From contig JAHFPH010000012.1 in the NCBI GenBank assembly GCA_023266845.1, positions 1 to 44,306 of the forward strand: a DNA stretch of 44,306 nucleotides. The letters are read 5' to 3'. Of this stretch, positions 16,632 through 33,014 are shown piece by piece. Under the pieces are notes generated by a model that saw nothing but the letters and a program-made list of their open reading frames with translations, did no database searches and was not told the DNA's origin. Both the position numbers and the translations under genes were made by a program. Each line of letters opens with the position of its first letter. Position 1 is the stretch's first letter. Source of the DNA: Rhodospirillaceae bacterium. GTDB lineage: Bacteria > Pseudomonadota > Alphaproteobacteria > JAEULC01.

Positions 16632-17024
16632 TCAGGCGGCTTCGGCCGGCGGCATGACAGGCGATTCGCGCCGGGCCGACAGGCCGGCGGCGACATTGCG
16701 GTTGATGTCGATCAGGGTACCCAGCTTGCTGGCCGCCGGCTCGCTCAACGCGTCGAGCGTTTGGCGGTCGACGAAGATGCTGAGGCTGACGATATTGGCT
16801 TTCAGCTCGTCGGGCAGCGCGTTCTCGGCCGAGGCCACGTCGCACTGGATGATGGTCCACAGCCGCCAGTTCAGGCGCAACGCGGTGCGATAGGCCTCGA
16901 CGTCCTGCGCCACGTTCTCGCGCGCGTCGTTCAGGCGCCGCGCGGCTTCCATCAGCGCCTTGGCTTCGGTGCTGCCGCTGACGTTGGCGTTATGAAGATG
17001 TTTCCTGCGGTCGCCGATCGACAT
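16632..17024 (-). CDS. flaF: Flagellar biosynthesis regulator FlaF
   Basis: A 130-residue protein with the FlaF pattern: an N-terminal helix (EAKALMEAARRLNDARENVA), then YRTALRLNWRLWTIIQCDV, the LPDELKANIVSLSIFVDRQT helix and KLGTLIDINRNVAAGLS near the end. FlaF is an alphaproteobacterial factor that, with FlbT, adjusts flagellin translation and secretion; FlbT is not in this window. The ATG at 17024 has AAGGA 7-8 nt upstream. The gene is divergent from sciP, and the 231-bp gap between them holds a perfect CtrA box that could serve both. Confidence 0.85.
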   Translation of the reverse strand: MSIGDRRKHLHNANVSGSTEAKALMEAARRLNDARENVAQDVEAYRTALRLNWRLWTIIQCDVASAENALPDELKANIVSLSIFVDRQTLDALSEPAASKLGTLIDINRNVAAGLSARRESPVMPPAEAA

Positions 17025-17158
17025 GATCCCAATCCTTCGTGGATCGCTGGCGGGCACCCAAGCGGGGCTTCCTGCCGAAACTGCCGCCACCATAGGTGCA
17101 TGGGGTTAACAGCGGATGAACGCCCCGGCGCCTGGGCGGTGCTGGGGACCAGGCTGAG

Positions 17159-17255: not shown

Positions 17256-17549
17256 ATGGACAAGTTCAATATCGGGCCAGGCATGGCCGTGGTGGGGCCG
17301 CAGGGTCGGCCGATTTCCCTCCACGATCTGCCGCCGCCCAATACCAAGCGATGGGTCATCCGGCGTAAGGCCGAGGTGGTCGCCGGCGTGCGTTCGGGGT
17401 TGCTTACCCTCGAAGAGGCTTGCGCGCGCTACAAGCTGTCGGTGGAGGAGTTCCTCTCCTGGCAGCGGCTGATCGACCGGCACGGAATGCGCGGCCTGCG
17501 CGCCACGCGGCTGCAGGAATACCGCGCGGTTCTCGACGCCGCCGACTGA
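17256..17549 (+). CDS. sciP: CtrA inhibitor SciP (DUF1153)
   Basis: A 97-residue protein matching SciP: GPQGRPISLHDLPPP at the N-terminus, TKRWVIRRKAEVVAGVRSG, then a helix-turn-helix (LTLEEACARYKLSVEEFLSW) and RHGMRGLRATRLQEYR. In Caulobacter SciP binds CtrA, or DNA next to it, and blocks CtrA-dependent transcription in G1 without affecting CtrA stability. The perfect CtrA box upstream suggests that CtrA drives sciP here too, closing a negative loop. It precedes the fliF-fliG fusion in the same orientation with a 185-bp gap that contains its own promoter-like elements. Confidence 0.93.
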   Translation: MDKFNIGPGMAVVGPQGRPISLHDLPPPNTKRWVIRRKAEVVAGVRSGLLTLEEACARYKLSVEEFLSWQRLIDRHGMRGLRATRLQEYRAVLDAAD

Positions 17550-17619: not shown

Positions 17620-17639
17620 GGAAAAACCCAGGTTTTTCC
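17620..17639. other. Inverted repeat after sciP
   Basis: GGAAAAACC and GGTTTTTCC are perfectly complementary with only CA between them. This may be a sciP transcript end or a protein-binding palindrome; the two-base loop is too tight for an ordinary hairpin, so the effective stem would be shorter. Confidence 0.35.
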
Positions 17640-17644
17640 ACGAA

Positions 17645-17677
17645 TTAACCGATCATTCACCGTCCCGTCCCTACAAT
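17645..17677 (+). promoter_or_regulatory. Candidate CtrA-dependent promoter of the fliF-fliG gene
   Basis: TTAA (17645-17648), seven bases and TTCA (17656-17659) give a CtrA box with one mismatch. A TACAAT (17672-17677), five of six matches to a -10 box, lies where the -35 position would fall inside the box, as in CtrA-activated promoters. The gene starts 58-70 bp downstream. Confidence 0.45.
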
Positions 17678-17734: not shown

Positions 17735-19270
17735 GTGAACGGTTTGATGCAATGCCTGGGGACCGCGCGTCCCGGAAGGCTGGGCACGCTCGGCGCGGCC
17801 GGCATCGCATTGCTTTTCGGATTCGCGATCTTCGCGGCCTGCGACGACGCCCTTAGCGACGAACTTCCGCTGGGCCAGGCGCGCACCGCCCTGGAGCTGC
17901 GCCTCGGCCGCGCGATCGAGGAGATGCTGGAGCCGCTGGTCGGCGCCGGCAAGGCGCGCGCCGAAGTCTCGGCCGAGCTCGATCCCGAGCGCGCCACGGT
18001 CAACAGCGAGATCGTCGATCCCGACAGCCAGGTCCAGCGCAGCGTGCGCACGGTCGAGGAAGGCCAGAAAAGCGACACCACCACGACCTATGAATTCTCG
18101 CGCACGGTGAAGACGCTGGCGCGCGAGGCCGGCCAGCTCAAGCGCCTGTCGGTCGCGGTGCTGGTGGACTACGCGCTGGCCGACGGCAAATCCGTGCCGC
18201 GCGCGCCCGAAGAGATGGAAACCCTGGCGCGGCTCGTGCGCTCGGCCATCGGCTTCAACGCCGAGCGCGGCGACAAGGTCGAATTCTTCAACCTGCGCTT
18301 CGCCGAACTACCGCCCCGCGGGTCGCGTGGCGGCGCGATGCCGGGCTTGAGCAATGCCGAGCTCATGCGCCTGGGCGAGCTTTTGATCGTCAGCATTGCC
18401 GTCCTGTTGGGGCTGCTGGTCGTGGCGCGGGCGCTGGCGCAGCGCCGCCCGGCCTTGGCCACCGCCGTTCCCGCGACGGCCTCCCCCGTCCCCGCTCCGA
18501 TCATGCCCATGCCGGAGCCCGAGCGCCCGGCGCGCGAAACGCCCCGCGCGCCCCAAGCCGCGCCGGCGCGCGACGCGACCGTGTGGGACAAGCTGACCCA
18601 GGTGAACGAGGCGACGCTTGCCAATTACCTGGCCCAGGAGAATCCGCAGACCATCAGCCTGGTGCTGTCGCGCCTGGACGCCGCCCATGCCGCGCGCGTC
18701 CTGGCGCAACTGCCGGTAACCTTGGCCACCGGCGTGATGCAACGCATGCTGCGGCTGGAGCCGGTCGAGCCCCAGGTACTGGACGCGGTCGAGCGCGTGC
18801 TCAGCGCCGAATTCGCGCAAAGCCTGGCGCGCGCGCCCGCGCCGCCCACCGACGGGCACGCCGCCGTGGCGCGGATCCTCGACAAGCTGGATCGCGGCAC
18901 GGAACAGCGCATCGTCGCGGCGCTGGAACGCCAGAACCGCGGCGGCGCGGAGCGCGTGAAATCGCGCATGATCGGCTTCGACGACCTGGCGCAGCTAAGC
19001 ATCGAGGACGCGCGCGCCCTGTTGCGCGAAGTGAAGCCCGACAAACTGGCCGTGGCGTTGAAAGCCGCGGCCGAAGCCACGCGCAAACTGTTCCTGGACG
19101 CGCTGCCCGAGCGCAGCTCCCGCGTGTTGCGCCAGGAAATCGCGGCCCTGGGCCCGGTGCGTTTGCGCGAGGTGGACGAGGCGCAAGCCGCGATCCTCAA
19201 CGTGGCGAAAGAAATGGCCTTGCGCGGCGAGATCGTGTTGGGCGACGGCGATTCTGGCCCCGCGGCCTGA
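17735..19270 (+). CDS. FliF-FliG fusion: MS-ring RBM3 plus FliG middle and C-terminal domains
   Basis: A 511-residue chimera. TM1 spans about 17-36. Residues 48-192 match the FliF C-terminal ring domain RBM3 (LELRLGRAIEEMLEPLVGAG, VDPDSQVQRSVRTVEEGQKS, YEFSRTVKTL, KRLSVAVLVDYA, GFNAERGD), with the beta-collar loop almost absent. TM2 spans about 211-233. A Pro/Ala linker leads to the FliG middle domain (285-360; ENPQTISLVLSRLDAAHA where FliG has EHPQ) and C-terminal domain (375-500; FDDLAQLSIEDARALLREV, GPVRLREVDEAQAAIL). FliF RBM1 and RBM2 and the FliG N-terminal domain are missing, and the 185-bp gap to sciP cannot hold them. Elsewhere fliF, fliG and fliN are neighbours, so fusion by deletion across a gene junction is plausible. 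The start is GTG 17735 or ATG 17747. Confidence 0.88.
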   Translation: MNGLMQCLGTARPGRLGTLGAAGIALLFGFAIFAACDDALSDELPLGQARTALELRLGRAIEEMLEPLVGAGKARAEVSAELDPERATVNSEIVDPDSQVQRSVRTVEEGQKSDTTTTYEFSRTVKTLAREAGQLKRLSVAVLVDYALADGKSVPRAPEEMETLARLVRSAIGFNAERGDKVEFFNLRFAELPPRGSRGGAMPGLSNAELMRLGELLIVSIAVLLGLLVVARALAQRRPALATAVPATASPVPAPIMPMPEPERPARETPRAPQAAPARDATVWDKLTQVNEATLANYLAQENPQTISLVLSRLDAAHAARVLAQLPVTLATGVMQRMLRLEPVEPQVLDAVERVLSAEFAQSLARAPAPPTDGHAAVARILDKLDRGTEQRIVAALERQNRGGAERVKSRMIGFDDLAQLSIEDARALLREVKPDKLAVALKAAAEATRKLFLDALPERSSRVLRQEIAALGPVRLREVDEAQAAILNVAKEMALRGEIVLGDGDSGPAA

Positions 19271-19282
19271 ACGGAGACGAGC

Positions 19283-19612
19283 ATGGCCGACAAGAAACTC
19301 GATCTGGAAGAACTGGGCGATGCTGCCGCCGGCGCGGCCGCTGGCGGCGCGGCTGGCGATGCCGGCGCCTCGGTGCTCGACGCGGTGTACGACATTCCGG
19401 TGCAGGTCTCGGCCGTGCTGGGCAGGACCACGCTGCAGGTCGGCGAGATCCTGAAGCTCGAACGCGGCGCGGTGATCGAGCTGGACCGCCGCGTGGGCGA
19501 GAAGGTCGATATCTACGTCAACGACCGGCTGGTCGCGCGCGGCGAAGTCGCGGTGGTCGACGACCGCCTGGCCGTGACCATGACCGAGATCGTGAAGTCC
19601 GAGAAGCGCTGA
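19283..19612 (+). CDS. fliN: Flagellar motor switch protein FliN
   Basis: A 109-residue protein. The N-terminal 30 residues are Ala/Gly-rich and acidic; residues 33-105 are a SpoA (surface presentation of antigens) domain with YDIPVQVSAVLGRTTLQVGE, LERGAVIELDRRVGEKVDIY and NDRLVARGEVAVVDDRLAV, the standard FliN C-terminal fold. FliN forms the lower C-ring of the flagellar rotor and binds the export ATPase complex through FliH. It follows the fusion gene by 12 bp with a GGAGACGAGC ribosome site. FliM, which normally links FliG to FliN, is not encoded here. Confidence 0.93.
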   Translation: MADKKLDLEELGDAAAGAAAGGAAGDAGASVLDAVYDIPVQVSAVLGRTTLQVGEILKLERGAVIELDRRVGEKVDIYVNDRLVARGEVAVVDDRLAVTMTEIVKSEKR

Positions 19613-19738: not shown

Positions 19739-20731
19739 ATGCGGTTGAAGACCTTCACCGCCCCATCCATGAGCGAGGCGATTCGCCTGGTGCGCGACGC
19801 GCTGGGGTCGGACGCCATCATCGTTTCGGACCAGCCGACCGACGACGGGCTCAGCGTGCGCGTGACCGCGGCGATCGACACGCCGGTCGACGCGCTGGGC
19901 ACGCCGATCGGAACGCCCGACTCGCTCGACACGCTGACCGACGCGCTTTCCTATCATGCCGTGCCGGCGGGATTGGGCGAGCGCATTTTGGCGGCGGCCG
20001 CCCGCGCGCAGATGGGCACCGTCGACCCGATCGCGGCTTTGGCGGCGGCGTTGGAAACCACCTTCCATTTCGCGCCCCTGGGCTCGCCCGGCCCCGGCGA
20101 CGCGCCGATCATGCTGGTCGGCCCGCCGGCTAGCGGCAAAACAGTGACGGCGGCGAAGCTCGCGGCCCGCGCCGCCCTGGCGAGGCGCAAAGTAACCCTG
20201 ATCGCGGCGGACGCCGCCCGCGCCGGAATGGCCGAACGCCTGGCCGCGCTGGCGCTGTCGTTGGGCGCCGAGATGGAAGAGGCCAAGGACCGCGCCGGTC
20301 TGGCGCGCGCGGTGGCGGCGGCCGAGGGTGGCGTAACGCTGATCGACGGCGCCGGGGTCAATCCCTTCGACCGCGCCGAGATGGCGGCCCTGAAGCAGGC
20401 GATCGAGGCGGTCCGGGCCGAGCCGGTGCTGATGGTCGCGGCGGGCGGCGACGCGGATGAATGCGCCGACATCGCCGCCGCCTTCGCCAGGATCGGCGTG
20501 CGCCGCATGATCGCCAGTCGCGCCGACCTGGCGCGGCGGCTGGGCGGCGTTTTGGCGGCGGCCGAGGCTGGCGGGCTGGGCCTGGCCGAAATCGGCACTG
20601 CGCCGCAGATCGCCGGCGGCCTCAGGCCGCTCGACGCCCTGTTTCTCGCCCGGCGCCTGTTGCCGGAATCGGCTCGACAGGACACGGCCGCAGAGGCCAT
20701 AACCCAATTGCAGCACGCGGTGGCGTCATGA
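19739..20731 (+). CDS. flhF: Flagellar biosynthesis GTPase FlhF, divergent
   Basis: A 330-residue SRP-family GTPase. The start RLKTFTAPSMSEAIRLVRDA and LGSDAIIVSDQP match the FlhF basic N-terminal domain. The NG domain begins near residue 80. Its nucleotide motifs are degenerate: P-loop GPPASGKT (128-135), DAARAG (158-163) where the family has DxYRIGA, DGAG (203-206) in place of DTAG, and SRAD (260-263) in place of TKLD. FlhF recruits the first flagellar parts to a cell pole, and FlhG stimulates its GTPase. The ATGA overlap with the next gene supports coexpression with the FlhG homologue. GTP turnover may be reduced or lost. Confidence 0.85.
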   Translation: MRLKTFTAPSMSEAIRLVRDALGSDAIIVSDQPTDDGLSVRVTAAIDTPVDALGTPIGTPDSLDTLTDALSYHAVPAGLGERILAAAARAQMGTVDPIAALAAALETTFHFAPLGSPGPGDAPIMLVGPPASGKTVTAAKLAARAALARRKVTLIAADAARAGMAERLAALALSLGAEMEEAKDRAGLARAVAAAEGGVTLIDGAGVNPFDRAEMAALKQAIEAVRAEPVLMVAAGGDADECADIAAAFARIGVRRMIASRADLARRLGGVLAAAEAGGLGLAEIGTAPQIAGGLRPLDALFLARRLLPESARQDTAAEAITQLQHAVAS

Positions 20732-21519
20732 TCCCACATCTGGAAACCTCCGGCTCCACCACCGCCCAGACCGGCGGCGGGCACCGCATCGTCGCCGTCG
20801 CCTCGGGCAAGGGCGGCGTGGGCAAGACCTGGTTTTCGATCACGCTGTCGCATGCGCTGGCCCGCGCCGGGCAGAAGACGCTGCTGTTCGACGGCGACCT
20901 GGGCCTCGCCAACGTGGACATCCAGCTTGGCCTGACGCCGCGGCGCGATCTGGGCGCGGTGATGACCGGCCAGTCGACCCTGGGACAGGTTTCCGCCCCC
21001 TTCCCCGAGGGCGGGTTCGACATCATCGCTGGGCGCTCGGGCACGGGCAGCCTCGCCAATTTGTCGATGCAGCGCCTGGGCGCGCTGAGCCAGGATCTGG
21101 CGCAGCTCGCGCGGCGCTACGACTGCACCGTGGTCGACCTGGGCGCGGGGCTGGAGCGTCCCGTGCGCATGCTGGCGGCCGTGGCCGGCCTTACCCTGGT
21201 GGTCACGACCGACGAGCCCACCGCGCTCACCGACGCCTATGCCTTCATCAAGGTCACGACCCAGGAAACGCCGCAGGCGCGCCTGGGCGTGGTGGTGAAC
21301 ATGGCGACGACCAGACGCGAGGGCGAGCGCACCTATGAAACGCTGCTGAAGGCCTGCAAGGGGTTCCTGAAGATCGAGCCGCCGCTCTACGGCATCATCC
21401 GGCGCGACGCACGGGTGCGCGAGGCGATCCGCTACCAGACGCCGCTGCTCGCCCGTTTCCCGGCCGCCGACGCGGCGCAGGACGTGGAAGCGGTCGCGCG
21501 CAAGCTGATCGACGAGTGA
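20728..21519 (+). CDS. flhG: FlhG/MinD-like ATPase
   Basis: A 263-residue ParA/MinD-type ATPase. The deviant Walker A motif is SGKGGVGKT (about 26-34); FDGDLGLANVDIQLGLTPRR is the FlhG-type switch I region, and YDCTVVDLGAGLERPVRMLA the switch II region (with Gly where MinD has DTPAG-like sequence). FlhG limits flagellar number and acts on FlhF; the usual N-terminal DQAxxLR activator helix is replaced by a short Ser/Thr/Gly-rich leader. The start ATG overlaps the flhF stop. A strong hairpin follows. Confidence 0.87.
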   Translation: MIPHLETSGSTTAQTGGGHRIVAVASGKGGVGKTWFSITLSHALARAGQKTLLFDGDLGLANVDIQLGLTPRRDLGAVMTGQSTLGQVSAPFPEGGFDIIAGRSGTGSLANLSMQRLGALSQDLAQLARRYDCTVVDLGAGLERPVRMLAAVAGLTLVVTTDEPTALTDAYAFIKVTTQETPQARLGVVVNMATTRREGERTYETLLKACKGFLKIEPPLYGIIRRDARVREAIRYQTPLLARFPAADAAQDVEAVARKLIDE

Positions 21520-21607: not shown

Positions 21608-22012
21608 TCAGCCCTGGCTGCGCTTGCGCTCGCCGTCGGGAATGATCCGGATCGGCATCGGGTCGGAGCCGCGCGGGCGCTTCTGCTGGCGCATCCGTTC
21701 GCGGCTGGCCAGCGCCAGCTCGTACTTCTTCATTTCGTCGAACGCCTCGGCCACGTCCATGCGCGCCTGTTCGGCCTGCCGCTCCACATCGGCCAGCGAC
21801 TGGACGATATGCTGCCGGCGCAGCCTCACCGCCTCGACGAAGCCGCTGGGCGCCGCCGCGCGGGCGCGGCCTGTGTCGCCAAGCTCGGCCTCGAGCTGCG
21901 CCGCGGCGCTTTTCAGCTTGTCGCGCAGGCGCTCCAACTCGTCGAGCGCCCGGCTACGCTCTTCAAGGCGCCATTTCTGCATGCGGACGGTGGCCGCGAC
22001 GCTTTTCCTCAT
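21608..22012 (-). CDS. FliJ-like coiled-coil flagellar export protein
   Basis: A 134-residue protein that is helical almost throughout: VRMQKWRLEERSRALDELER, KLKSAAAQLEAELGD, a short break at AAAPSGF, then LRRQHIVQSLADVERQAEQA and MKKYELALASRERMRQQKRP. This two-helix coiled coil with a hydrophilic, charged surface fits FliJ, the stalk of the flagellar export ATPase, and alphaproteobacterial fliJ genes often lie beside ctrA. Sequence identity is low in this family, so the name rests on fold, size and context. The ATG at 22012 has a GGAAG site; an in-frame ATG at 22081 is less likely. fliI is not present. Confidence 0.6.
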   Translation of the reverse strand: MRKSVAATVRMQKWRLEERSRALDELERLRDKLKSAAAQLEAELGDTGRARAAAPSGFVEAVRLRRQHIVQSLADVERQAEQARMDVAEAFDEMKKYELALASRERMRQQKRPRGSDPMPIRIIPDGERKRSQG

Positions 22013-22476
22013 GCCACGCTTCCGGTCCGGTTCGTTTGGTTCGACTTGGCCATACCTGCCACCACCGATGCTGATGCCCATGCCCGCGTCACCCGCTCCA
22101 CCCCGGAGCGATATGGCGCGCGCGTTTTAAACTGCTTGGCGAGTATCGCGCTCGTTGTTTAACTTTTTGTAAATTGCAGGGTTTTAGTTTCCAATCCTCG
22201 AACGCAGAAAATCAGCCATTAATATCAAATGTTTATAGAAACCCAATCGCCTGCCGCCAACGGCGCCCGCCGATCCGCCAAACCTCGTCCTGGCGCAGCG
22301 AGTCGCCACGAAAGTGGCGGTTACCCATTCCATCCGTTCCGTGAGTCAAAGCAAGCACATAGCTAATTTGGGTTGAATCCTCAGGTCGTTACATAGCGGT
22401 TTGATTCTATAGACTTTTCTATTGATTCCATCCATCTATTAAGATAAGTTAAGGTTAATCCACTGGGAGAATACCC
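22013..22476 (+). promoter_or_regulatory. Regulatory region of ctrA with GANTC cluster and TTAA motifs
   Basis: This 464-bp gene-free stretch is clearly richer in A+T than its surroundings. It has five GANTC sites, the target of the cell-cycle methylase CcrM, within 130 bp: 22300, 22343, 22375, 22403 and 22424. TTAA occurs three times in 20 bp at 22439-22458, just before the GGGAG ribosome site, and a CtrA box with one mismatch lies at 22159-22173 (TTAA-N7-TAAA). These features point to control by methylation state and by CtrA itself. No small open frame with a good ribosome site was seen. Confidence 0.6.
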
Positions 22477-23199
22477 ATGCGCATCCTATTGGTCGAAGAC
22501 GATCCGTCGACCGCCAAGAGCATCGAGATAATGCTCAAATCAGAGGGATACGTGGTCGATCTGGCCGATATGGGCGAAGACGGCTTGGAGATCGGCAAGC
22601 TTTACGATTACGACATCATCGTCCTCGATCTGATGCTGCCCGACATCGACGGGTACGAGGTGCTGCGCCGGATGCGCCAGGCGCGCATCAAGACGCCGAT
22701 CCTGATCCTGTCGGGCCTTGCGGAGCTGGACAGCAAGGTCAAGGGCCTGGGCATCGGCGCCGACGACTATATGACCAAGCCGTTCCAGAAGCGCGAGCTG
22801 ATCGCCCGCATCCAGGCGATCGTGCGCCGCTCCAAGGGCCATTCGGAATCGATCGTGCGCACCGGCAAGCTGGTGGTGAACCTGGACAGCCGCACGGTCG
22901 AGGCCAACGGCCAGCCCTTGCACCTCACCGGCAAGGAATACGGAATTCTCGAGCTCTTGAGCCTGCGCAAGGGCATGACGCTGACCAAGGAGATGTTCCT
23001 GAACCATCTCTACGGCGGCATGGACGAGCCGGAGCTGAAGATCATCGACGTGTTCGTGTGCAAGCTGCGCAAAAAGCTGACCGGCGCCACGGGCGGCGAG
23101 AACTACATCGAGACGGTGTGGGGCCGCGGCTATGTGTTGCGCGACCCGGCGAGCGAACCGGCGGCGGCCGATCCAGTGCCGCAGCGCGCCGTGAGCTGA
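22477..23199 (+). CDS. ctrA: Cell-cycle response regulator CtrA
   Basis: A 240-residue OmpR-type response regulator. The receiver domain (1-120) has the acidic pair EDD (7-9), the phosphorylated Asp51 in [15 protein letters not shown] and Lys in DYMTKPF. The winged-helix domain (about 128-228) contains [54 protein letters not shown] and GRGYVLRD, characteristic of CtrA. CtrA-P activates late flagellar and division genes through TTAA-N7-TTAA boxes and in some species silences the origin. Its phosphotransferase ChpT is the next gene on the opposite strand. The C-terminus ends in Ala-Val-Ser, not the Ala-Ala degradation tail seen in Caulobacter. Confidence 0.98.
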
Positions 23200-23310: not shown

Positions 23311-23949
23311 CTATTCCGCCCGGTGCGGAATCTCAACCGCGAAGCCCATCTTGTCGGCATCAGGCCCGGTCACCTCGAGCCTCCCGCCCATGCGCTGGGC
23401 GAGCCTTACGGTGAAATAGGGCTGCACGCCGCGCGGGCTCAAAGCATCGACCTTGGCTCCGGGATCGAGCCCCGCGCGCACCTCGTCGCTTAGCCGCGCG
23501 CCCTGGCCGCTCGACGTCACCGCGAGGCGCGACTTGTCGGCGCCCACCGTCACCGCCACGGCAAGCGCGCCGCCGCGCGGCAGGGATTCCGCCGCCAGCG
23601 CGATCAGGTTCAGCAGCATCTTGCCCCAACCCGCCACGTTGGGCGCCTTGGTGCTAGCCGGGTCCCACTGCACGACGAGCTTGCCGCCCTCGAAAATGCC
23701 GTCCAAAAGCTCGCGCACATCGGCCACGGGCTGCGCCAGTTGCGCGCCGGCCTGACCGAACGCGACACGGTAGAATTGCAGCCGCCGCGAGGCCTGCTTG
23801 CCCGAACTCGCGATCAGCTTCATCGCCTCGCCGTCGCCCTCGCCGAACTCCTCGATCAGCTCGATGCCGTTGTTGACCGCGCCAACCGGGCTTACCAGGT
23901 CGTGGCACAGACGCGAGCACAGCAGCTCGGCCAGTTTCAGATCGTCCAT
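23311..23949 (-). CDS. chpT: Histidine phosphotransferase ChpT
   Basis: A 212-residue protein with the ChpT signature LAELLCSRLCHDLVSPVGAV, in which His16 is the phosphoryl carrier, followed by NNGIELIEEFGEGDGEAMKL. The C-terminal half is a degenerate HATPase-like domain (MLLNLIALAAESLPRGGALA, YFTVRLAQRMGGRLEV) that does not bind ATP in characterised homologues. ChpT passes phosphate from the hybrid kinase CckA to CtrA and CpdR. It converges on ctrA across the ctrA terminator. The ATG at 23949 is preceded by GGGGGAA and is preferred to one at 23994. Confidence 0.93.
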   Translation of the reverse strand: MDDLKLAELLCSRLCHDLVSPVGAVNNGIELIEEFGEGDGEAMKLIASSGKQASRRLQFYRVAFGQAGAQLAQPVADVRELLDGIFEGGKLVVQWDPASTKAPNVAGWGKMLLNLIALAAESLPRGGALAVAVTVGADKSRLAVTSSGQGARLSDEVRAGLDPGAKVDALSPRGVQPYFTVRLAQRMGGRLEVTGPDADKMGFAVEIPHRAE

Positions 23950-24031
23950 CGGATCGCGTTCCCCCGTTGGTCCCGGCGCATTCCGAATACGCATCCCCGC
24001 GGTATAGTGTCAACTGAAGGAGTTCGGCGCC

Positions 24032-29201: not shown

Positions 29202-32111
29202 TTAAGCTTTTTCGATGCGGCATAGCGTGACCTTGGTCTCTTGCATCTGGGTCACGATGTCGTAGCCGTAGGTCGTGCAGGTATTGGCCGATTCGCCGAG
29301 CACGTATGGATCGGCGCCGGGCGGGTATTTGGCCCGCCGGTCCTCGCCCTGCCATTGCCCGCCGAAATGGAACGGCATGAACGCGACGTTCTTGCCGACC
29401 CGTTCGGTGACCATCGCCTTGACCCGCACTTTGCTGCCCTCGGGGCTATGCACCCAGACGTTCTGGCCGTCTTTGATGCCCGCCTGGTTGGCGTTGAAGG
29501 GGTTGATCTCGACGAACATGTCCTGCTGCAACTCGGCGAGCCACGGGTTCGACCGCGTCTCGTCGCCGCCGCCCTCGTACTCGACCAGGCGGCCCGAGGT
29601 GAGCACGACCGGGAACTGCTTGCCCGCGTCCTTGTTCTTGTCCTGGACCGTCTTGAACAGCAGCGGCACGCGCCAATGCCGTTTCACGTCGTTGTGAGTC
29701 GGGTACTTCTCGATCATCGCGGCGTCCGGCGAATACAGCGGTTCGCGGTGCAGCGGCACGCCGTCCGGGAAATTCCAGACGATCGCCCGCGCTTTGGCGT
29801 TGCCGAACGGCGCCAGGCCGTGCTTGATCGCCACGCGCTGGATGCCGCCCGACGTGTCCTGGCTCCACAGGATGCCGTCCGGCGTGGCGCCGCCGATCTT
29901 CTCGATATTCGCGCGCTCCGCGTCGGTCAGGTCCTTGTCCCAGCCCATCTTCTTCAGCATGCCGTAGCTGACCTGCGGATAGCCGTCCTGGATCTCGGAG
30001 CCCACGTTGTAGGCGCCCTCGGCCAGCAGGTTCTCGCCCCACTTCTTCAGATTGTCGGGCGGCGTCAGGCCGAACAGGTTGCGGAACGACAATCCGCCTT
30101 CCGCCACCGGCTTCGACTGGTCGTACAGGTTGGGCGTGCCGGGATGCTTCATCTCGGGCGTGCCCCAGCACGGCCAGGGCAGTCCGTAATAGTCGCCGTC
30201 GCACGGGCCGCCATTGGCGCGCAGCGACGTTTTGTCGAACGTCGCCTGGTTGGCCAAGTGCAGCTTGAGACGCTCGGGCGACTGGCCGGTATAGCCGATG
30301 GTCCAAGCCCCGCGGTTGATCTCGCGCAGGATGTCCTCGACCAATGGCACTGTCCCGGTCACTTTGATGTTCTTGAACATCTCCTTTTCGAAACCGAATT
30401 TCTGCGCGAACAGATACATGATCTCGTGGTCGCGCTTGCACTCGAACACCGGCTTGAAGATCTCGTAGCCCCACTGGATCGAGCGGTTGGACGAGGTGCG
30501 CGATCCGTCGGTCTCGAGCTGCGTCGCCGCCGGCAGCAGGTACACGCCGTCCTTGCGGTCGTGCAGCACGGCCGACAGCGTCGGATACGGATCGACGATG
30601 ACCAGCATATCCAGCTTTTCCATGGCCTTCTTATTGTCGGCCAAGCGCGTCTGCGAGTTCGGCGCGTGGCCCCAATAGACCATCGCCTTGATGTTGTCGG
30701 GCTGGTCCAGGTTCTCCTTGGCTTCCAGCACGCCGTCGAACCAGCGCGAGACCGGAATGCCCGGCTTTTCCATCATCTCGGGCTTGTTGTTAAACCGGCC
30801 CTTCAGATAGTCCATGCTGACGTCCCACACGCGCGCCCAGTGCGCCCAGGCGCCGGGGACCAGCCCGTAATAGGCCGGCAGCGTGGAGACATCGAGGCCG
30901 AGGTCGGTCGCGCCCTGCACGTTGTCGTGGCCGCGGAAGATGTTGGCGCCGCCGCCCGACACGCCGATATTGCCCAGCGCCAGTTGCAGACAATTATAGG
31001 CGCGGACATTGGCGTTGCCGACCGTATGCTGCGTGCCGCCCATGCACCAGATCAGGGTGCCCGGGCGGTTGTTGGCCATGGTGCGCGCGACGCGCTTGAT
31101 CTGCGATACCGGCGCGCCGGTGACGCGCTCGGTCTCTTCCGGCGTCCACTTCTTGCACTCCTCGCGGACTGCATCCAAGCCCCAGACGCGCTTCTTGATG
31201 TACTCCTTGTCCTCCCAGCCATTCTCGAACACCTGGTTGAGGATGCCCCAGATCAGCGCCACGTCGGTGCCCGGACGGAAGCGGACGTATTCGTCGGCGT
31301 GCGCGGCGGTGCGCGTAAAGCGCGGGTCGCACACGATCAGCGGCGCGCCGTTCTGCTCCTTGCCCTTCAGGATGTGCAGCATCGCCACCGGATGCGCCTC
31401 GGCGGCGTTGGAGCCGATCATGAAGATGCATTTGGCCTTGTGGATGTCGTTGTAGCTGTTGGTCATCGCGCCGTAGCCCCAGGTCTGGGCCACGCCGGCG
31501 ACGGTGGTGGAGTGGCAGATGCGCGCCTGGTGGTCGATGTTGTTCGAGCCCCAGAACGCCCCGAACTTGCGCAGCAGATAGGCCTGCTCGTTCGAGAACT
31601 TCGCCGAACCCTGCCAGTACACCGAGTCGGGCCCCGACTTCTCGCGAATCTCGAGCATCTTGTCGCCGATTTCCTTGATCGCGACGTCCCAGGACAGGCG
31701 GGTCCATTTTCCGGCGACCAGCTTCATCGGATACTTCAGGCGGCGTTCGCCGTGCGCGTGCTCGCGGATCGCGGCGCCCTTGGCGCAATGCGCGCCCAGG
31801 TTCAGCGGGCTGTCGAAGCTCGGCTCCTGGCCGATCCACACGCCGTTCTGCACCTCGGCGGTGACGGTGCAGCCGACCGAGCAATGCGTGCAGATATTCT
31901 TGATGATCTTGATCTCGCCGCCGGCGGCGCCCGCCGCCTCGGCCGGGCCTACCATGCCGCCCCTAAGCGACGCCGCGGCCGCCAGGCCGCCCGCCGCGAG
32001 GCCCGAGCGCTTGAGGAACGTGCGCCGGTCGACCGCTCCGCCGACGACGCCGGCCAAAGCCTTGGTCAGCCGCGAACCCGTCGCGGCGCCCGTGGTGCGT
32101 TTCGTGAGCAT
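29202..32111 (-). CDS. fdhA: Formate dehydrogenase catalytic (alpha) subunit, molybdopterin enzyme
   Basis: A 969-residue molybdopterin oxidoreductase. The N-terminus carries a twin-arginine signal, DRRTFLKRSGLAAGG (29-43). A [4Fe-4S] cluster is bound by Cys74, Cys77, Cys81 and Cys109. The active-site segment is ARICHSTTVAGVAQT, with Cys199 as metal ligand in place of the selenocysteine of E. coli FdnG, and His200. GYGAMTNSYNDIHKAKC and IGSNAAEAHPV follow, and the C-terminal domain ends with a MoPterin-binding barrel (VVLTSGRLVEYEGGG). The enzyme oxidises formate to CO2 in the periplasm. It lies 23 bp after the small Tat-leader gene. Mo and W cannot be told apart. Confidence 0.96.
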   Translation of the reverse strand: MLTKRTTGAATGSRLTKALAGVVGGAVDRRTFLKRSGLAAGGLAAAASLRGGMVGPAEAAGAAGGEIKIIKNICTHCSVGCTVTAEVQNGVWIGQEPSFDSPLNLGAHCAKGAAIREHAHGERRLKYPMKLVAGKWTRLSWDVAIKEIGDKMLEIREKSGPDSVYWQGSAKFSNEQAYLLRKFGAFWGSNNIDHQARICHSTTVAGVAQTWGYGAMTNSYNDIHKAKCIFMIGSNAAEAHPVAMLHILKGKEQNGAPLIVCDPRFTRTAAHADEYVRFRPGTDVALIWGILNQVFENGWEDKEYIKKRVWGLDAVREECKKWTPEETERVTGAPVSQIKRVARTMANNRPGTLIWCMGGTQHTVGNANVRAYNCLQLALGNIGVSGGGANIFRGHDNVQGATDLGLDVSTLPAYYGLVPGAWAHWARVWDVSMDYLKGRFNNKPEMMEKPGIPVSRWFDGVLEAKENLDQPDNIKAMVYWGHAPNSQTRLADNKKAMEKLDMLVIVDPYPTLSAVLHDRKDGVYLLPAATQLETDGSRTSSNRSIQWGYEIFKPVFECKRDHEIMYLFAQKFGFEKEMFKNIKVTGTVPLVEDILREINRGAWTIGYTGQSPERLKLHLANQATFDKTSLRANGGPCDGDYYGLPWPCWGTPEMKHPGTPNLYDQSKPVAEGGLSFRNLFGLTPPDNLKKWGENLLAEGAYNVGSEIQDGYPQVSYGMLKKMGWDKDLTDAERANIEKIGGATPDGILWSQDTSGGIQRVAIKHGLAPFGNAKARAIVWNFPDGVPLHREPLYSPDAAMIEKYPTHNDVKRHWRVPLLFKTVQDKNKDAGKQFPVVLTSGRLVEYEGGGDETRSNPWLAELQQDMFVEINPFNANQAGIKDGQNVWVHSPEGSKVRVKAMVTERVGKNVAFMPFHFGGQWQGEDRRAKYPPGADPYVLGESANTCTTYGYDIVTQMQETKVTLCRIEKA

Positions 32112-32134
32112 GTTCGTCTCCCCTTAAGCGCCGG

Positions 32135-32344
32135 TTAGAACTTGGCCGACTTGTAATAGGTCTTGACGTGCTCGGTCTCGCGATAGGCGCCCGTCTTGGC
32201 CTGATCGGCCGCGGCCGGCGCGGCCTTGACTGCAATCGTCGCCGCGACGGCGCCGAGCGCGCCCGCGCCCAAGCCGGTCTTGCGGATGAACGCCCGCCGA
32301 CCGATGCCGGCTTCGGTTTTCGTTTCGTGCTTGCGGTCGGTCAT
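32135..32344 (-). CDS. Formate dehydrogenase region Tat-leader protein (TIGR02811 type)
   Basis: A 69-residue protein with a twin-arginine motif (GRRAFIRKTGLGAGALG, from about residue 15) and a short mature part that ends ADQAKTGAYRETEHVKTYYK and SAKF. This matches the small Tat-target family encoded directly upstream of FDH alpha genes. Its role is unknown; a decoy or assembly function for Tat export has been considered likely because of its constant position. It is 46 bp from the chaperone gene and 23 bp from fdhA. Confidence 0.88.
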   Translation of the reverse strand: MTDRKHETKTEAGIGRRAFIRKTGLGAGALGAVAATIAVKAAPAAADQAKTGAYRETEHVKTYYKSAKF

Positions 32345-32390
32345 GGCTCTGTACCCCTTACGTGCACGTCAACTCGTATCCGCGACGGCG

Positions 32391-33014
32391 TCACGTCATC
32401 GCGAAGGCTTCGCTTTCGATGTCGATGAACAGCCGGCCAATGCTGCCGACCGGCATATAGAGGCGCGCAGACTTCGCCGCCGCCAGGTCGGCAAAGAACC
32501 GCCCGGCCCATGGCGCCAGATGTGCGTCGAAGAATTTGCGTTGCCCGGCCAGATCGGCCGGCGGCCCGAAACGGCCCTCGATCAGCCCGGCCATGATTTC
32601 GCACAGCATGCCGATATGGTCTTCGGGCTCCGCAGTGTCCTTGGACGGGGCGATGCCGAGGCGCGCCATGTCGCCGCGCAGCCGCGCCAGCGGTTTTTCG
32701 TGCATGAACCCGGTCAGATAGTAAGACGCGTAAGGCGTCAGCTCGCCCTGCGACAGGCCGATGAACAGCGCGTTGTATTCTTCCTCAGCCGCGCTCGGCT
32801 CAGTCGCGCGCGCGGCGGCCGACAGCGCGGCGAAAGCTTGGCCCAGAGACGAGGCGTCGCCGTCTATTGCGGACAGACGCTGCAGGAGTTGCGCGGAAGG
32901 CGGACGCGCCAACGCCCCGCCTAGCAGGTCATAGACCTGGGCACGCGCGCGATCCTCTTCCGTAATAACTGCGGTCTCGGCGGTATTCGCCAACACCCGT
33001 CGTTCCTCACCCAT
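32391..33014 (-). CDS. TorD/DmsD-family chaperone for formate dehydrogenase
   Basis: A 207-residue all-helical protein with the TorD-family core: RAQVYDLLGGALARPPSAQL, then YNALFIGLSQGELTPYASYY and the signature EPEDHIGMLCEIMAGLIE (E-P-x-D-H), followed by a C-terminal helical block. Such chaperones bind the Tat signal peptide of molybdoenzymes and hold export until the cofactor is inserted. As first gene of the fdh operon its client is almost certainly FdhA or the small Tat-leader protein. A promoter-like element with a palindrome lies about 90-118 bp upstream. Confidence 0.9.
   Translation of the reverse strand: MGEERRVLANTAETAVITEEDRARAQVYDLLGGALARPPSAQLLQRLSAIDGDASSLGQAFAALSAAARATEPSAAEEEYNALFIGLSQGELTPYASYYLTGFMHEKPLARLRGDMARLGIAPSKDTAEPEDHIGMLCEIMAGLIEGRFGPPADLAGQRKFFDAHLAPWAGRFFADLAAAKSARLYMPVGSIGRLFIDIESEAFAMT

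Follow-up and report, generated by a model that had tools for sequence, protein, structure and literature searches.

How does a single gene come to encode parts of FliF and of FliG, and what would its product do in the cell? Such a gene lies in the window analysed here, by which we mean the whole stretch of 44,306 nucleotides of contig JAHFPH010000012.1. The source genome (G000) is a draft of 3.46 Mb in 200 contigs, 94.67% complete and with 2.92% contamination. Its order consists of one genus in the searched collection, and the three other genomes of this genus ("genus mates") made up the comparison set.

A natural FliF-FliG fusion

The gene starts with GTG and encodes 511 uninterrupted residues, arranged as follows (evidence in brackets).

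17735..19270, + strand: FliF(TM1-RBM3-TM2)-FliG(M-C) fusion gene, 511 aa (ORF, Pfam, alignment, AlphaFold, Foldseek)
17789..17854, + strand: TM1, residues 19-40 (hydropathy, AlphaFold model)
17870..18304, + strand: RBM3 domain, residues 46-190 (Pfam, alignment, AlphaFold, Foldseek)
18353..18442, + strand: TM2, residues 207-236 (hydropathy, AlphaFold model)
18446..18580, + strand: Pro/Ala-rich disordered linker, residues 238-282, replacing FliF tail and FliG-N (alignment, AlphaFold)
18614..18826, + strand: FliG middle domain, with the FliM-binding EHPQ-type motif present as ENPQ (Pfam, motif alignment)
18920..19240, + strand: FliG C-terminal domain (Pfam, motif alignment)

The gene is a natural in-frame FliF-FliG fusion, strongly reduced. 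Pfam assigns YscJ_FliF_C to residues 111-189 (2e-30), FliG_M to residues 294-364 (5e-20) and FliG_C to residues 396-502 (2e-30). RBM3 (PF08345) between two TM helices identifies the front part as FliF, and FliG_M together with FliG_C identify the rear part as FliG. Aligned with the genus mates, the fusion lacks the RBM1/RBM2 block, the FliF tail and FliG-N; the FliG_N domain, which serves docking on the FliF tail, is absent by Pfam as well. A weak match of the FliG_N model at residues 304-398 proved to be the armadillo repeats of M and C, not a genuine FliG-N. The beta-collar is a short loop (about residues 93-124), in the alignment ~35 residues shorter than in genus mates. Because each half is incomplete, the fusion stays far under the NCBIfam equivalog cut-offs, with 60.7 bits against 129.75 for FliF (TIGR00206) and 156.6 against 226.7 for FliG.

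An AlphaFold model built on a 46-row alignment (mean pLDDT 75.8, above 90 over most of RBM3 and FliG-C) folds into TM1, an RBM3 spanning about residues 46-186 with a loop instead of the collar, TM2, the disordered linker and the helices of FliG M/C. In Foldseek, one half matches FliG-MC and the other the RBM3 rings (33/34-mer) of Salmonella and Vibrio FliF. GC content by codon position (0.75/0.49/0.88) is like that of a real gene. The FliM-binding motif is ENPQ in the fusion and EYPQ in genus mates, and the FliG-C helix motifs are conserved in an alignment whose E. coli FliG row served as a motif guide only. The initial annotation had proposed this very succession of TM1, RBM3, nearly lost collar, TM2, Pro/Ala linker and FliG M/C, with RBM1, RBM2 and FliG-N absent, and it is borne out in both respects: for the former Pfam, AlphaFold and Foldseek agree, for the latter Pfam and the alignment to genus mates. 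It had also asked whether full-length fliF or fliG exist elsewhere in G000. There are none: PF01514 (YscJ_FliF, RBM1/RBM2) has zero matches genome-wide and the single FliG_C match is the fusion gene. The 1:1 ratio of FliF to FliG which it foresaw follows, provided that the frame is translated whole.

With FliF of Salmonella (6SCN/7D84/8FTF) and relatives, the fusion shares the RBM3 fold, TM1 and TM2, and the operon position after sciP; unlike them, it has no RBM1, RBM2, FliG-binding tail or most of the collar, it is joined to FliG, and its genome lacks export gate, rod and filament. With FliG of the C-ring it shares FliG-M and FliG-C, the FliM-binding motif and the conserved FliG-C helices, at 50-51% identity to genus-mate FliG; here, however, FliF and the Pro/Ala linker stand where FliG-N was, and no MotA was found. 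Laboratory FliF-FliG fusions (Salmonella; Vibrio FliFG, PDB 8Z4D/8Z4G) are likewise single chains with FliF followed by FliG. They build MS-rings, and one Salmonella fusion is motile (PMC6079021, PMC11481574). The full-length laboratory fusions keep RBM1-3 and were part of a complete flagellum or overexpressed, whereas the G000 fusion is natural, strongly reduced and sits in a genome without flagellar export genes. Among the open-access papers searched, none describes a natural FliF-FliG fusion.

The origin of the fusion can be read from its surroundings, beginning with two features upstream.

17256..17549, + strand: sciP (CtrA inhibitor), also the upstream neighbour of genus-mate fliF
17632..17661, + strand: promoter-region footprint TTTCC ... 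TTAAC ... TTCRTTCAC, which can be aligned across the genus (four species)

All three genus mates carry separate, normal fliF (~551 aa) and fliG (~340 aa) directly after sciP, as the initial annotation expected of relatives; in two of the three a contig end cuts one of these genes. The gap between sciP and the fusion measures 185 bp, as the initial annotation stated, and its view that no simple frameshift is involved is upheld. In this intergenic region the GTG start comes after TTTCC, TTAAC and TTCRTTCAC of the footprint, whose TTAAC(C) resembles a CtrA half-site and may bind CtrA. Compared with a genus mate, the fusion is 55% identical in the RBM3 part and 51% in the FliG-MC part. None of 1000 shuffles aligned as well as its first 48 residues do with the genus-mate FliF N-terminus, and 10 of the first 19 residues are identical to FliF of one mate (G002). 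Judged from these alignments, the fusion arose in place, by in-frame deletion of RBM1-RBM2, of the collar, and of the stretch from FliF tail through FliG-N, because genus mates have the same sciP neighbour, and their promoter and FliF N-terminus can be aligned with its own.

In-place, in-frame deletions also argue against an assembly error. The initial annotation would have yielded to an error removing the N-terminal region of FliF; the alignable N-terminus and promoter and the in-frame deletions counter it. More generally, an assembly or binning artefact joining pieces of fliF and fliG draws on the state of the draft (200 contigs, 2.92% contamination), and we find it scarcely credible: the pieces are in frame and show an even divergence, each half being 51-55% identical to the mates, coding composition is continuous, the surrounding sister gene order is preserved, and the same architecture occurs in independent genomes of a second order.

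Flagellar genes lost and kept

Downstream and upstream of the fusion, the window holds the following genes.

19283..19612, + strand: fliN (Pfam, NCBIfam)
19739..20731, + strand: flhF, SRP-type GTPase (Pfam, NCBIfam)
20728..21519, + strand: flhG, MinD-type ATPase, 75% identical to genus mate
21608..22081, - strand: FliJ-like coiled coil, 52% identical to genus-mate FliJ, no Pfam match; fliI missing alongside
16632..17093, - strand: FlaF (flagellin regulator), kept without any flagellin gene found
22477..23199, + strand: CtrA-type response regulator
23311..23994, - strand: ChpT-type histidine phosphotransferase

Farther along, a molybdopterin oxidoreductase, a nitrate-reductase-delta-type chaperone and a nearby cytochrome b561 gene (29202-33014, - strand) probably form a formate dehydrogenase cluster.

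The order sciP-fliF-fliG-fliH-fliN-motA/exbB-like-flbD-flhA-flhF-flhG of genus mates is shortened in G000 to sciP-fliFG-fliN-flhF-flhG. All within this one contig, fliH is gone from between the fusion and fliN; the stretch from fliN to flhF has lost the motA/exbB-like gene, flhA and the flbD-type regulator; and next to fliJ there is no fliI. Absences in the rest of the genome were judged by searches of the draft assembly. A flagellated relative supplied FlhA, FliI, FlgI, the ends of FlgE, FlgK and flagellin for one combined query. It detected FlhA, FliI, FlgI, FlgE/F/G, FlgK and flagellin in every one of the three mates but not in G000, where the FliI query hit only F1-ATPase- and Rho-like sequences. 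The FlhA family HMM and MotA_N likewise match in 3/3 mates and nowhere in G000, and G000 also lacks the MotA/ExbB-like gene that the mates have after fliN. That a chance gap spans all these genes is very unlikely at 95% completeness. We are thus nearly certain that the G000 cell has no flagellum.

The initial annotation had taken the protein for part of a flagellar rotor, a view that falls with FlhA, FliI, FlgI, FlgE/F/G, FlgK, flagellin and MotA. A working motor with a reduced rotor could appeal to the charged FliG-C helices retained in the fusion and to the motility of Salmonella FliF-FliG fusions (PMC6079021). We give it hardly any credence, since genes for export gate, ATPase, P-ring, rod/hook family, hook-associated proteins, filament and MotA went undetected in searches that were positive in 3/3 mates. 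The export gate and the rod sit within RBM1, RBM2 and the collar, so that the loss of these domains follows that of the flagellum.

What is kept in the window is the fusion, FliN (70% identical to genus mate), FlhF, FlhG, the FliJ-like protein and FlaF, with flhF and flhG intact beside the ring genes. FliM, which the initial annotation had suggested looking for, is intact on a separate contig of 8.4 kb (C198) and retains LTREEIEALL at its N-terminus. This contig also bears a DUF6468 protein and a MotE-like protein; their genes (the latter MgtE_N) adjoin fliM at L019:4506-5600 (- strand) despite the missing MotA. With flagellin and FliI gone, FlaF and FliJ look like leftovers. In Lysobacter, by comparison, flagellum loss includes loss of fliG rather than retention as in G000.

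The neighbourhood of sciP, ctrA and chpT, the TTAAC half-site footprint upstream of the fusion and the CheY/FlhG-binding type of the FliM N-terminus could mean that the ring serves signalling or regulation instead of polar division, as a CtrA/SciP-linked assembly checkpoint or by docking CheY-like proteins through FliM. Basal flagellar proteins of polar flagellates feed into flagellar transcription programmes (PMC7064773). We nevertheless consider this quite improbable. The locus lacks the flagellar regulator (flbD-type) that adjoins flhA in the mates, chemotaxis genes were not seen within the window, and a checkpoint would have no remaining flagellar output.

A parallel case in a second order

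Viral contigs contained no relative of the fusion, nor did a first scan of named genome contigs. A scan of these contigs with genus-mate FliF returned 50 normal loci and none fused, and an even sample of 385 genomes of the class gave no second fusion among the strong matches. An odd 961-aa FliG frame (G106) proved to be a normal fliF plus fliG. A contig filed under Myxococcales (L086) has an alphaproteobacterial-type fliF-fliG locus and is likely mis-binned.

A second case was traced from weak class-level matches examined singly. It leads to another alphaproteobacterial order whose single family, f90, comprises 43 genomes of 0.7-1.8 Mb. FlhA occurs in none of the 43, MotA_N in none of the 35 genomes tested, and 34 match the fusion profile. 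In some genera a separate RBM3-only FliF (~290-330 residues) stands beside a full FliG; other genomes have a single frame of ~570-650 residues retaining FliG-N; in others it measures ~416-421 residues and has no FliG-N, which is the architecture of the window fusion. The uniqueness which the initial annotation implied is hence not sustained, the same reduced fusion again occurring without FlhA or MotA_N. Further fusions may exist, as the class survey is a sample and its weak matches were opened in part.

The accompanying genes are graded too. Four f90 genomes with separate RBM3-only FliF retain FliM, FliN, FlhF and FlhG; fused ones retain, among detectable genes, FliN with FlhF and FlhG, or FlhF and FlhG, or the fusion alone. 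G000 and the separate f90 forms have the FliM-binding PQ motif in FliG; the most reduced fusions have lost it. Graded losses are seen at L141, L143, L144, L145, L146, L147 and L148, all without FlhA, in a series that starts with separate RBM3-only FliF, FliG, FliN, a MotA/ExbB-like protein, FlhF and FlhG, and ends with the fusion alone. The series fits the order to be expected, in which the flagellum is lost, then the export-housing domains, then the genes fuse, and FliG-N is lost last. It probably shows stepwise how the same reduction happened there. The f90 genes thus resemble the G000 fusion in that FliF is cut down to RBM3 and can be joined to FliG, that some have lost FliG-N, and that FlhA and MotA_N are lacking; they differ in residing in tiny genomes, several of which are without FliM/FliN and even FlhF/FlhG.

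Several details of these loci are worth recording. A MotA/ExbB-family gene without MotA_N match follows fliN at L014:5679-6524 and L141:13196-13999, and such a gene survives in some f90 genomes without another detected stator gene. At G409:C18:12102-13811, a frame of 584 residues matches FlhF and FlhG, which a single stop codon separates; they may be an FlhF-FlhG fusion or adjacent genes. At G422:C147:10954-11895 (L148), one in-frame stop seems to cut flhF, possibly a decaying gene. After the short fusion of G413 and G370, a 206-residue protein with a weak FlhG-like match (L143:9018-9638; L147:15674-16294, - strand) is perhaps a degenerate FlhG.

Do the two fusions share an origin? In a FliG-MC tree the G000 fusion falls among free-living Alphaproteobacteria, away from f90, on a long branch; the AU test rejects neither affinity to f90 (p 0.30) nor to genus mates (p 0.77). 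The fusion is 50-55% identical to genus mates against 22-27% to f90 (alignment A1). We rejected gene transfer with f90, as identity, gene order, N-terminus and promoter favour the genus mates. Vertical descent within its own genus is the better reading because of synteny, identity, promoter and N-terminus, and independent origins of the G000 and f90 fusions are likely on these sequence grounds, not proven by the tree.

The end branch of the fusion measures 1.19 against a median of 0.079, and rough estimates against a genus mate give dN 0.44 and dS 0.68, compared with 0.04 and 0.24 between mates. Constraint on the fusion is therefore clearly relaxed. Piecemeal loss of flagellar genes is common, and all this could be a passive relict: the flagellum is gone, fliF/fliG/fliM/fliN/flhF/flhG/fliJ/flaF are decaying leftovers, and the fusion came about by chance deletion and has yet to become a pseudogene. 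Because the fusion evolves fast and FlaF and FliJ look like leftovers, we take this as a serious rival, even if an unlikely one. Against it, two clean in-frame deletions (RBM1-2; FliF tail to FliG-N) and a collar trim left whole domains. All retained genes have intact frames, FliN and FlhG keep 70% and 75% identity to genus mate, the promoter is alignable, and ENPQ and the FliG-C motifs are conserved. Moreover, the same architecture persists in a second order with genomes of ~1 Mb, where unused genes should vanish. We are fairly confident that some selection acts on the ring proteins.

A putative ring and its role

The set retained by G000 is the division-control set of Campylobacter jejuni, which leads us to read the ring as a polar scaffold linked to FlhF/FlhG. 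We give this scaffold, with its proposed ring assembly, polar position and cellular role, about an even chance. In C. jejuni, mutants of fliF, fliM, fliN, flhF and flhG show polar division and minicells, and export-apparatus and rod mutants form few or no minicells (PMC3228812). FlhG is mislocalised from the pole in MS- and C-ring mutants (PMC6946799). The single fliG mutant forms few minicells (PMC3228812), which counts against the scaffold. G000 and C. jejuni share the FliF, FliM, FliN, FlhF and FlhG set, there acting beyond motility (PMC3228812, PMC6946799); C. jejuni, however, has a full flagellum, whereas in G000 the ring set stands alone and its like function would be a matter of analogy. 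The ring kept in G000 after flagellum loss, and the like reduction in a second order, suggest a role for the ring apart from swimming.

The proposed model is as follows. TM1-RBM3-TM2 of the fusion would form a membrane-anchored ring of ~33-35 subunits; isolated Salmonella RBM3 assembles rings of native symmetry (PMC8786727) and Vibrio FliFG fusions form 34- and 35-mers (PMC11481574). On the cytoplasmic side, the fused FliG-M/C would carry a C-ring of FliM/FliN, docking of FliG-N on the FliF tail being no longer needed once the two are joined. The M and C domains of FliG bind FlhF, as seen in Shewanella, and the N-terminus of FliM binds FlhG (PMC11236974). The parts lost would then be those that served the flagellum (RBM1, RBM2, collar, export gate, ATPase, rod, hook, filament, stator), and the parts kept those that contact FlhF (FliG-MC) and FlhG (FliM N-terminus). 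Such a ring would likely take part in division-site placement or cell-cycle polarity, as the MS/C ring of C. jejuni does in addition to motility.

Tentatively, and with somewhat less than even confidence, we extend the scaffold to a flagellum-independent ring organelle. On two or more occasions in Alphaproteobacteria, the FliF-RBM3/FliG(/FliM/FliN) rotor, released from export, axial structure and stator, would have become a membrane scaffold that stands alone and works with FlhF/FlhG, and the fused protein would be the core that cannot be reduced further. Some f90 genomes keep the fusion without detectable FlhF, FlhG, FliM and FliN, and there a role with FlhF/FlhG is incomplete as an explanation.

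Taken together, rotor parts were kept after swimming was lost, in two groups, and the export and rod domains (RBM1, RBM2, collar) are set apart from the ring core. The f90 family covers the steps between a reduced FliF that still stands apart and a complete fusion, and the small fused protein lends itself to tests of how RBM3 rings assemble and how the C-ring attaches. The two groups offer a natural test of whether the MS/C ring has a task of its own with FlhF/FlhG, so far studied mainly in the flagellated C. jejuni.
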